Shown here: positions 53,186 to 56,960 of the stretch, in pieces | Position numbering within the stretch: the stretch's first letter is position 1 | Layout of the letters: each line of letters opens with the position of its first letter | Assembly: GCA_015345905.1 (NCBI GenBank) | Contig: JADDTR010000021.1 | Span: 186,001-250,000 of the forward strand | DNA: 64,000 nucleotides | Source of the DNA: Aotearoamyces nothofagi | Taxonomy: Eukaryota > Ascomycota > Leotiomycetes > Leotiales > Tympanidaceae | Direction: 5' to 3' | The notes under the pieces: model-generated | Told to the model about the DNA's origin: nothing | The model's database searches: none | The model's input: the letters and a program-made list of their open reading frames with translations, nothing else | Position numbers and translations under genes: made by a program

Positions 53186-54899
53186 CTATATATACTTGTA
53201 CGGATTCATGATGCCGTTCTGTTTGCTATGTTAGCTCATGGAGAAAAGAAAACGGGTAGCGAGTGCTTACAGGATCATATAGTTGCTTGATCTGTTTCAT
53301 CAGCTTGATCATGGTATCACTCCGGCTGTATCCAATATATTTCTTCTTTTGAAGACCTAATCCGTGTTCTGCGCTGATACTTCCACTTCTGTCCTGAATC
53401 CACTGGTATACCCACGGTTCAAGTAAAGCTTCAACCCTTTTATCATATCTTCGTACGCATACGTTGAGATGTAAATTGCTGTCTCCCATATGCCCATATC
53501 CAATAACACTACTGACGGGATGCTGGTCGTCGTCCCCAAGCAAGCCAGCTTTCTCCATTTTCTCTCGGCATTCTTCAACAAGACTATACATTTCTTGAAG
53601 AGGAATTGAAACATCATATTTGTACACACCACCGCGGTGGGCGGATGCCTCGGCAATGCCTTCTCGCCAGCCCCATAGGGCCTTGATTTGAGTTTCATCC
53701 TGTGCAACAACACCGTCTAGCACGATCTCTTTCTCCATTACGTGCTCTAAAAATTTCTCCAGCTTCTCATTGTCGTGCTCACTGTTTGAGCCACTAGTCT
53801 CAACCAGACAATAGAAAGGATATTCACCCTCCAGTGGTCGCTTGTGCTTGGTCATGTCGTAGACTACATCTTGACTCTGGCCATCCATGAGCTCAAAAGC
53901 TGATAGGATCTCGGAAAGTTGACCTTTGGCTTCACAGAAAGCAGCTTGGACCTTTTCGAAGCTTTCAACGCCAAAGAATGCGACGTTGACGGCTTTTGAT
54001 CGCTGGGGGCATAGAATAGAAACACCGGTAATGATACCAATGGTTCCTTCTCCTCCAATGAAAAGCTGTTTGAGGTCATACCCCGTATTATTTTTGCGTA
54101 ATTTTGAAAGGTCATCTATAATCGTTCCATCAGGAAGAACGGCCTCTAATCCAAGGACACTACCGTGCAAGCTCCCATATCGCAGTAATCGTAGGCCGCC
54201 AGCATTAGTCGCAACATTGCCTCCAATATGGCAGGATCCTTTGGCGCCCAGATCTAATGGGAAGATATGACCTCTTTCAGCGAGGTAATTGTCTGCCACC
54301 TCCAAGACGACTCCTGCATCCGCCACGAACGCCCCCGAGACTTCATCAAAATATCTGACTTTATTCATACGCCCCATTTGAATCACTATTTCATCAAATA
54401 CGGGAACAGATCCCCCAACCAAACCGGAATTGCCTCCTTGTGGAACAACTGCTAGAAAATTATCGTTGCAGTATTTCAAGATCTTGCTGACTTCCTCCGT
54501 TGATCCTGGCTTCAGCACGAGTTTTGAATGTCCGCGGTACTTTCGCATCCAGTCTCCATTAAACGGTTCGATATCATCTGTTGCATCTTTAGTGACACCG
54601 TCAATGATCGCTGATTCTGTGCCGAGTAGGTCTTTAAAGTATTTTACGTGCTCTTCTGTGATCCGAGAAAATCTCGAATCTCGTTTCATCTCAGGGTATG
54701 TTTCCGAGGTAAATTTGATCGTCTTCGTTGTGCCTGTCGACCTCTTAGTCGTTTCGTTATGGTCTTCTGGACTAGCAGTGCTTCCATTGCTTTGCCAGCG
54801 AGCGTGCAGCGCAGGCATTGTTATGGCTCGCGCCCATCGTGTTGGCCACATGCGCCTAGAGACGGGCAATGCAGACGTTAAACGTGAAGCACAAGCCAT
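53186..54899 (-). CDS. mitochondrial FAD-linked D-lactate / D-2-hydroxyglutarate dehydrogenase (Dld2-like)
   Basis: Exon 1 is 53271-54899 and the last exon is 53186-53218, encoding only NGIMNPYKYI after a 52-base intron. The protein has 553 residues. The N-terminus MACASRLTSALPVSRRMWPT is basic and hydrophobic, a mitochondrial targeting sequence. The FAD-binding domain holds FLAVVPQGGNSGLVGGSVPV and DLGAKGSCHIGGNVATNAGG. The C-terminal cap has SSVIGYGHMGDSNLHLNV, with metal-binding histidines, and SISAEHGLGLQKKKYIGYSR. This pattern fits yeast Dld2/Dld3 and human D2HGDH, which oxidise D-2-hydroxyglutarate (Dld2 coupling this to pyruvate reduction). D-lactate as main substrate is possible. It shares a 321-base divergent promoter with the proteasome gene. 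Confidence 0.93.
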
Positions 54900-55220
54900 C
54901 TTGAAAAATCCAGAGCGAATAAGCAAAGCTAGCTTGCGCAATTGGATATTATATTCAAAAGTTGGAGAGTCGGGGAGCTTGCGCGAGGCCGAAGTCCGTC
55001 GACCAAGATTCAAATGGTCAGCCTTGTGTCATGCCATATATACCAGGCACAAAACGTTAGAGCTTCCCGTGGATCGCGTAGCTTCGTATGCATGTGTAGC
55101 CTACGAGATTCAAAGTTCACAAAACACTCCCAACAAAGCTATAGGAACACTTGAAGAACCCTGCAAAGCTACGATCATCTAGAAATATACTCAGCTCAAT
55201 AGATAAAGCAAGTCCTCAGC
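54900..55220. promoter_or_regulatory. divergent promoter region, dehydrogenase / proteasome alpha4
   Basis: 321 bases between the start codons of two essential-type mitochondrial and proteasome genes. No motif is identified. Confidence 0.5.
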
Positions 55221-56229
55221 ATGGCGTCAGGATATGATAGAGCTCTTTCTGGTAAGCTGTACTCAAATATCAGCCCTTGACATGGACTTGCTAACAGTGT
55301 CACAGTCTTCAGGTGAGCACAGCAAGACAGCACAACAGATAACCCACTGACACATTTAGTCCCGATGGACATGTTTTCCAAGTTGAATATGCTCTCGAAG
55401 CTGTAAAACGAGGTTCGTTAGCTATGAATAGGCTATCAGTCTCCCGTGCTAACATGTTGATGCATAGGAACATGCGCTGTTGGTGTTAAGGGTAAGGATG
55501 TTGTAGTTCTTGGCTGTGAGAAGCGGTCGGCTATGAAGCTCCAAGATACGCGTATTACGCCTTCAAAAATCGGCCTTGTCGATACACACGTCTGCCTTGC
55601 CTTCGCTGGTCTCAATGCCGATGCTCGAATTCTGGTCGACAAAGCCAGATTAGAAGCACAGTCGCATCGTTTGACTGTTGAGGATCCGGTTTCGATCGAG
55701 TACATCACAAAATATGTTGCCGGTGTTCAGCAGAGATACACACAGAGTGGTGGTGTTCGACCTTTCGGTATCAGCACGCTGATCATCGGCTTCGACCCTC
55801 TGGATAAGACCCCGAGATTATATCAGACAGAGCCTTCAGGCATCTACTCAGCATGGTAATCTATTTCATCAGGCATGCCATATGTCTAGGATACACTGAC
55901 ACCTATCTAGGAAAGCGAACGCTATAGGCAGATCAAGCAAGACAGTCCGAGAGTTTCTCGAGCGAAACCACAAGGATGATCTGGATCGGGAAGAGACCAT
56001 CAAACTAACTGTCAAGTCACTGCTAGAAGTTGTCCAGACAGGAGCCAAGAACATCGAGATTGCAATCATGGCACCTGGCAAGCTCCTTGAGATGCTGCCA
56101 GTAGAGGATATCGAGAATTACGTCAAGAACATTGAGGCGGAGAAGCAAGAGGAGGCAGCAAAGAAGAAGACCGGGCGGACACCAGGTACAGGGAACGCAG
56201 CTATCTTGACCAGAGGGCCTGATGAATAG
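55221..56229 (+). CDS. PRE6: 20S proteasome subunit alpha4 (Pre6/PSMA7-like)
   Basis: Five exons: 55221-55251, 55306-55312, 55360-55412, 55468-55855 and 55911-56229, giving 265 residues. The protein starts [20 protein letters not shown] and [20 protein letters not shown], the alpha-subunit signature. It continues with [20 protein letters not shown] and [18 protein letters not shown], and has the Lys/Glu-rich C-terminal tail of the alpha4 type. Alpha subunits form the outer gate ring and are not catalytic. Exon 2 is only seven bases (TCTTCAG), supplying part of V-F-S; without it the conserved motif is lost. All four introns are 47-55 bases with good ends (GTAAGC, GTGAGC, GTTCGT, GTAATC). Confidence 0.95.
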
Positions 56230-56421: not shown

Positions 56422-56960
56422 TTACCCCAGCTTATTTGGTGCCTCCTTAACATCAAATATCGTGCGTTGTTCCTCTCCCCGAGTACGGTCATCCTTTAAC
56501 ATTCTATTGTCAACGCGCACATCCTCTCCCTCGAATTTTAATATCGGCTTAGGAGTCTTCGCTTCGAGAACGAAATGGTTATCACAATGAGGGCAGTATT
56601 CATCACTCTCTTCGAACTCTTGAGCATCTTTTCGAAAACATTTCTTGCATTTCTTGCAAGCGAATGTCTGGGAGGCAGTATTAGAAGATATTCACTATGG
56701 GAGGAGGAGAAATGAGGGGTAAGCTTGCCATGTCGAGTTTTTGTAGAAGTTCATGGTCTTCTGATTCATAATGGCATTCTGCACAGTCAAACCACTTCCG
56801 ACCTAATAAGTTGTTAGATCTAGTGAATTTAAACAGCAAAACACATCGGTATCACGTACAGCACGGGGCCCGGATGGAAACCTGTGCATTGAGAATATGT
56901 TTGCTGGTAGAGCATTAGCCTTCTACACTTGAACATTGTTAGCTGGGTGACTTACCACAT
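56422..56960 (-). CDS. CHY-type zinc finger protein
   Basis: Four exons: 56956-56960, 56860-56903, 56729-56802 and 56422-56667. The 122-residue product is MCKHILNAQVSIRAPCCRKW, then FDCAECHYESEDHELLQK, TFACKKCKKCFRKDAQEF, ESDEYCPHCDNHFVL and a polar tail. The many CxxC and CxH pairs, starting with CKH and CxxCH, match the CHY zinc finger found in fungal small proteins related to Hot13 and RING ligases such as PIRH2. The role is unknown to me. The first exon holds only ATGTG before GTAAGT; an upstream in-frame stop (12 bases before the ATG) rules out an earlier start. The third intron starts GCAAGC after Met43, so it is a GC-AG intron. It is divergent to the XPB gene. Confidence 0.87.

Follow-up and report, generated by a model that had tools for sequence, protein, structure and literature searches.

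A predicted microexon of 7 nt in a fungal proteasome alpha4 gene

The alpha4 gene and its surroundings

The window, meaning the whole 64,000-nt stretch of DNA analysed here, belongs to a genome of 25.5 Mb in 55 contigs. The alpha4 protein, the small size of the introns and their CTRAY branch sites suggest a filamentous-type ascomycete. The gene at positions 55221-56229 on the plus strand is, judged by its predicted product, a proteasome alpha4 gene of the PRE6/PSMA7 type. Its features are as follows.

55221..55251, plus strand: exon 1 (coding part), with the ATG at 55221; it ends GCTCTTTCTG, supplies the first base of V11 and aligns to yeast PRE6 SGYDRALS
55252..55305, plus strand: intron 1, 54 nt, phase 1, GTAAGC...GTCACAG; donor CTG/GTAAGC, acceptor CACAG, and a CTAAC branch site whose A is followed by 11 nt
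55259..55260, plus strand: weak rival donor GCT/GTACTC, which together with acceptor 55359 gives an in-frame ALSGKLPDG and no microexon
55306..55312, plus strand: microexon TCTTCAG, 7 nt, completing V11 and adding F12 and the first two bases of S13
55311..55312, plus strand: tandem acceptor TCTTCAG/G, 7 nt past the acceptor in use; splicing to it gives a zero-length exon and a frameshift
55313..55359, plus strand: intron 2, 47 nt, phase 2, GTGAGC...CATTTAG; donor CAG/GTGAGC, acceptor TTTAG, and a CTGAC branch site whose A is followed by 9 nt
55360..55412, plus strand: exon 3, 53 nt, opening with TCCCGATGGACATG / TCCCGATGG; its first base is the last of S13
55413..55467, plus strand: intron 3, 55 nt, GTTCGT...CTAAC...GCATAG
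55468..55855, plus strand: exon 4, 388 nt, the alpha-subunit body, from the spliced alignment
55856..55910, plus strand: intron 4, 55 nt, GTAATC...CTGAC...ATCTAG
55911..56229, plus strand: exon 5, the C-terminal part and stop, from sequence reading and a check of the spliced coding sequence

With the microexon included, the spliced coding sequence is 798 nt long, remains open throughout and encodes 265 amino acids followed by a stop. The best match of this protein among solved structures is yeast PRE6 (390 bits), and the alignment is free of gaps over the N-terminus, including the microexon joint. PRE6 ranks first among the 60 chains listed out of 247 matched, and the first 29 of these carry the names alpha type-4, PRE6, alpha4 chain, alpha type-7, alpha-type 8 or an unnumbered alpha type, which places the protein with alpha4 over the other alpha types. 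It also belongs to the proteasome family and carries the alpha N-terminal signature, as both PF00227 (178 bits) and PF10584 (48.6 bits, covering positions 1-23 of 23) lie above their cut-offs. The initial annotation had named the gene as proteasome alpha4, and these matches bear it out; its sequence and coordinates for TCTTCAG and for the flanking introns of 54 and 47 nt are exact, base for base.

A divergent gene on the minus strand (53226-54890) lies about 0.3 kb away from the alpha4 start and codes for an FAD-linked oxidase (PF02913, PF01565), which we take to be D-lactate dehydrogenase-like. A PACE-type element, GGTGGCAAA, is absent from both strands of 54889-55220. On the other side, a cysteine-rich ORF (CKKC...CPHCDNHF; 56422-56691, minus strand) lies tail-to-tail with alpha4 and has no Pfam match at E 0.001.

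Splice signals and the need for a microexon

Splice sites were scored with a weight matrix trained on the 33 introns of our models for 13 further proteasome genes, and comparison scores were obtained by leave-one-out. The models behind this matrix were not curated, and the training set still includes introns that look spurious (a GC-AG intron of alpha2 at 1233-1325 of locus L017 and an alpha7 intron at 1339-1419 of locus L020) or possibly spurious (the final alpha5 intron and the initial alpha1 intron). On this scale, donor 55252 scores 8.56 and donor 55313 scores 5.24, with 27/33 and 13/33 modelled donors, respectively, scoring no higher. These two rank first and second among the 21 GT/GC candidates in 55221-55412, and the next candidate reaches 2.86. 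The acceptor of intron 1 at 55305 scores 6.02 (23/33 no higher), and the tandem acceptor at 55312 is slightly stronger at 6.56 (26/33 no higher). The acceptor of intron 2 at 55359 is weak, with a score of 1.50 (5/33 no higher). A CTRAY branch site is present in both introns, 11 nt from the 3' end of intron 1 and 9 nt from that of intron 2; such a site is found at 6-35 nt in 31 of the 33 training introns vs 9% of random stretches. As a predicted internal coding exon, TCTTCAG lies well within the limit of about 30 nt for microexons, and it is flanked by removable GT-AG introns with branch sites and the two best donors of the region.

Within 55221-55412 we enumerated the combinations of one or two GT/GC-AG introns, each at least 30 nt long, that keep the reading frame open, and obtained 17 solutions with a single intron and 301 with two. 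Only one of these 318 solutions encodes ALSVFSPDG, and it is the 7-nt exon model. The shorter FSPDG is recovered from 0/17 single-intron and 5/301 double-intron solutions. All five use the intron 55313-55359 preceded by an exon of 7 or 15 nt, and the other four lose or add residues ahead of FSPDG. The earlier proposal that inclusion of the microexon yields the conserved alpha-subunit N-terminus is therefore sustained by the gap-free match to PRE6 and by the uniqueness of this solution: no other choice of canonical splice sites encodes the segment.

The string that a 7-nt exon with the missing residues requires between AG and GT, AGTNTTYAGGT, has a single occurrence in the window when both strands are counted, and this is at the microexon. 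Shuffled windows contain it 0.24 times on average, and 20/100 of them hold it at least once. By simple arithmetic from these figures, the chance of finding it on one strand of a 108-nt stretch is about 2e-4.

When the yeast PRE6 protein is aligned to the DNA by spliced alignment under a flat intron cost, the 7-nt exon model is again chosen, with a score of 861. When the 108 nt between exons 1 and 3 (55252-55359) were dinucleotide-shuffled 1000 times with their ends kept, other models reached the real alignment score in 113 shuffles. The alignment score alone is thus not decisive, and we relied instead on exact recovery of [VI]FSPDG, which was seen in 0/1000 shuffles. The genome holds no spliced retro-copy of alpha4 with up to 3 mismatches.

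With the microexon joint disallowed, the top-scoring canonical model (851) has a single 101-nt intron from donor 55259 to acceptor 55359. This structure stays in frame, remains open over the whole coding sequence (265 amino acids) and changes three residues (ALSGKLPDGHVF, ALSGKLPDG), and it is probably the one that gene-finding software with a lower limit on exon size would pick. The initial annotation, in stating that skipping the microexon breaks the frame, overlooked this combination; the statement holds for donor 55252 with the same outer sites. However, donor 55259 scores only -0.13 (2/33 modelled donors score no higher) and sits 7 nt past a strong donor, which splicing at this site would have to bypass. 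The resulting protein reaches 25.0 bits against PF10584, below the cut-off of 27.7, vs 48.6 bits with the microexon. Moreover, GKL is absent from yeast PRE6, from human PSMA7 and from the best 80 of 114 homologues described below, all 80 being archaeal by title. We consider this structure highly unlikely.

If non-canonical ends are allowed at a cost of 25, again with the joint forbidden, the alignment finds a single intron at 55251-55351 with ends GG...AC. This model encodes ALSTFSPDG and scores 856, only 5 points below the microexon model; the stretch ahead of the acceptor, ACATTTAG, reads T-F-S in frame. We know of no class of splice ends to which GG...AC belongs, and the alternative is a pair of canonical introns that each have a branch site. 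Its threonine is shared by just one of the best 80 archaeal homologues, whereas V or I precedes FSPDG in 73 of them, and we regard this model as having next to no chance of being correct.

The residue counts used in these comparisons come from a homologue scan of genome contigs, which yielded 114 relatives in 235 matching stretches. All of the best 80 of 114, which were used, are archaeal by title, and a single reading frame was taken across the motif. At the place of V-F-S they carry VFS (43), IFS (30), MFS (6), TFS (1) or GKL (0), although the counts are biased because the scan seeds, FSPDGH[VIL]F and QVEYA[LQ]EA, partly favour the residues being counted. Since these relatives are archaeal, their value is for conservation of the protein, and they say nothing about where introns lie. 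Fungal alpha4 orthologues were found neither in viral contigs, scanned twice, nor in a first scan of genome contigs, and the second scan of genome contigs gave, among the best 80 of 114, archaeal sequences throughout.

Proposed splicing route and other tiny exons in the genome

The alpha4 gene of this filamentous-type fungus very probably contains a constitutive 7-nt microexon whose two short canonical flanking introns are removed by intron definition. Supporting this conclusion are the anatomy of the sequence, the uniqueness of the model among canonical solutions, the splice-signal scores, the conservation of the protein and similar tiny exons modelled in sister genes. From these observations we infer that the microexon is included in the mRNA, that the introns are taken out in turn and that use of the exon is constitutive.

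The introns of 54 and 47 nt each appear to be a complete unit that carries a donor, a branch site and an acceptor, so each should be recognisable on its own. The two would then be recognised separately and removed one after the other, and a step of exon definition across 7 nt would be unnecessary. Splice sites are reported to pair across short introns in filamentous ascomycetes of the Pezizomycotina (PMC6616335), and intron definition has likewise been proposed for exons too short for bridging in animals (PMC8378409) and in plants (PMC4674806).

The microexon would contribute residues V-F-S directly ahead of the conserved gate-turn proline of alpha subunits. The archaeal alpha subunit is reported to have an 'IT switch' (I12, T13) and, in a reverse turn, a Pro17 that shifts upon gate opening (PMC10349882). 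By our own reading of the YDR...FSP motif, V11-F12-S13 of alpha4 may correspond to archaeal residues 14-16, between the IT switch and Pro17.

Removal of 55252-55359 as a whole, which skips the microexon with the same outer sites, causes a frameshift and a stop after 25 codons, and the zero-length exon formed via acceptor 55312 likewise ends in a stop after 25 codons. Because 7 is not a multiple of three and such skipping truncates the protein, regulated skipping to produce a second isoform is unlikely. Switch-like or cassette microexons usually, but not strictly, have lengths divisible by three (the 20-nt Xlr2 microexon departs from this), and the alpha4 microexon does not.

These results also bear on the idea that the 108 nt form one complex unit, either a stwintron or a recursive zero-length exon, that is wholly removed in two steps. 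TCTTCAG/GTGAGC does resemble a recursive splice point, in that a good acceptor directly abuts a good donor, and stwintrons are established in Pezizomycotina (PMC6616335). However, joint removal of the nested introns of a stwintron keeps the frame open, and that of 55252-55359 does not. Removal as a complex unit could occur only as a minor, non-productive by-product, and we judge it exceedingly unlikely to be what the sequence represents. The constitutive microexon between two separately removed introns remains our preferred reading.

The initial annotation described exons this small as rare, which holds only in a relative sense. We modelled 19 conserved genes by spliced alignment (7 alpha, 7 beta and 5 others), and 4/37 internal exons, in 4/19 genes, measure 20 nt or less; these models were not curated, spurious-looking introns were kept in the count of 37, and the 5 other genes were picked as well known and not at random. 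Besides the 7-nt alpha4 exon, they are as follows.

Locus L009, 871-883 of the reversed locus, reverse strand: second exon of alpha5, 13 nt, ATCGGGGTATCAA, encoding the DRGIN stretch ahead of TFSPEG
Locus L108, 982-997 of the reversed locus, reverse strand: internal exon of calmodulin, 16 nt, in the first EF-hand, from the spliced alignment
Locus L017, 728-747: second exon of alpha2, 20 nt, TGGAAAGCTTGTTCAAATAG, encoding SGKLVQI

The introns of the alpha genes crowd toward the 5' end, and the tiny exons sit between them. By our reading of the models, the two intron positions of alpha4 are not common to the other six alpha genes. Across the N-terminal regions of all seven alpha genes, the only shared position that we noticed is that of alpha1 (L019) and alpha2 (L017), which lies in phase 1 in the E of QVEYA/QIEYA and might be an old position or a parallel gain. 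In alpha7, the alignment program did not call an intron that is seen in the start codon. The calmodulin intron that follows the 16-nt exon has no CTRAY site at 6-35 nt.

The tandem or weak splice sites of the 7-, 13- and 20-nt exons in the gate-turn segment of alpha4, alpha5 and alpha2, none of which has a length that is a multiple of three, might together form a shared, splicing-sensitive brake. We consider this very unlikely. If it were true, a faltering spliceosome would cause several alpha subunits to fail together, and the output of proteasomes would drop.

Significance and comparison with known microexons

The importance of the alpha4 microexon lies mainly in annotation, as automatic annotation is likely to be wrong at a 7-nt exon. 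The in-frame alternative ALSGKLPDG would pass frame checks and thereby place three wrong residues in a core protein. Given the tiny exons also present in alpha2, alpha5 and calmodulin, gene-finding programs that impose a lower limit on exon size would err in several core genes. In addition, a natural 7-nt exon flanked on either side by an intron of about 50 nt could serve as a simple reporter of how intron definition handles an exon whose two splice sites lie too close together to be occupied simultaneously. In literature searches that covered few subscription papers, and only in some cases this combination, no paper on microexons in fungal proteasome genes was among those listed.

The reticulon-like gene rtnA of Aspergillus niger has a 15-nt exon II that can be retained or skipped (PMC6616335). 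Like the alpha4 microexon, it is a very small internal exon beside short introns in a filamentous ascomycete, and intron definition has been invoked for it. However, its length is a multiple of three and it can be skipped through a stwintron, whereas the 7-nt alpha4 exon is not divisible by three and needs no stwintron.

The Xlr2 gene of Trichoderma virens carries a 20-nt microexon (PMC11121469), which is again from a filamentous fungus, has a length not divisible by three and was missed by gene prediction. Xlr2 is a transcription factor with a glucose-dependent switch and RNA evidence, whereas alpha4 is a housekeeping gene with no sign of regulation, and its microexon is predicted from the sequence.

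Microexons also occur in the P450 genes of Phanerochaete chrysosporium, where the shortest exon is 6 bp and introns are frequently 45-55 bp (PMC1184071). These genes provide a precedent for fungal exons of such size in small-intron genes, but they form a large and diverse family in a basidiomycete, unlike the case of alpha4.

In plants, microexons can be as small as 1 nt, for example in APC11 (PMC4674806, PMC8831610). As appears to be the case for alpha4, they are tiny, constitutive and frame-critical exons in conserved genes; they have been missing from annotation, and the successive removal of two introns has been proposed for them. The plant examples have been verified in RNA and are conserved between species, whereas the alpha4 microexon is predicted from genomic DNA. 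With tiny fungal and plant exons already known, the alpha4 microexon is very probably a real but ordinary oddity of gene structure.
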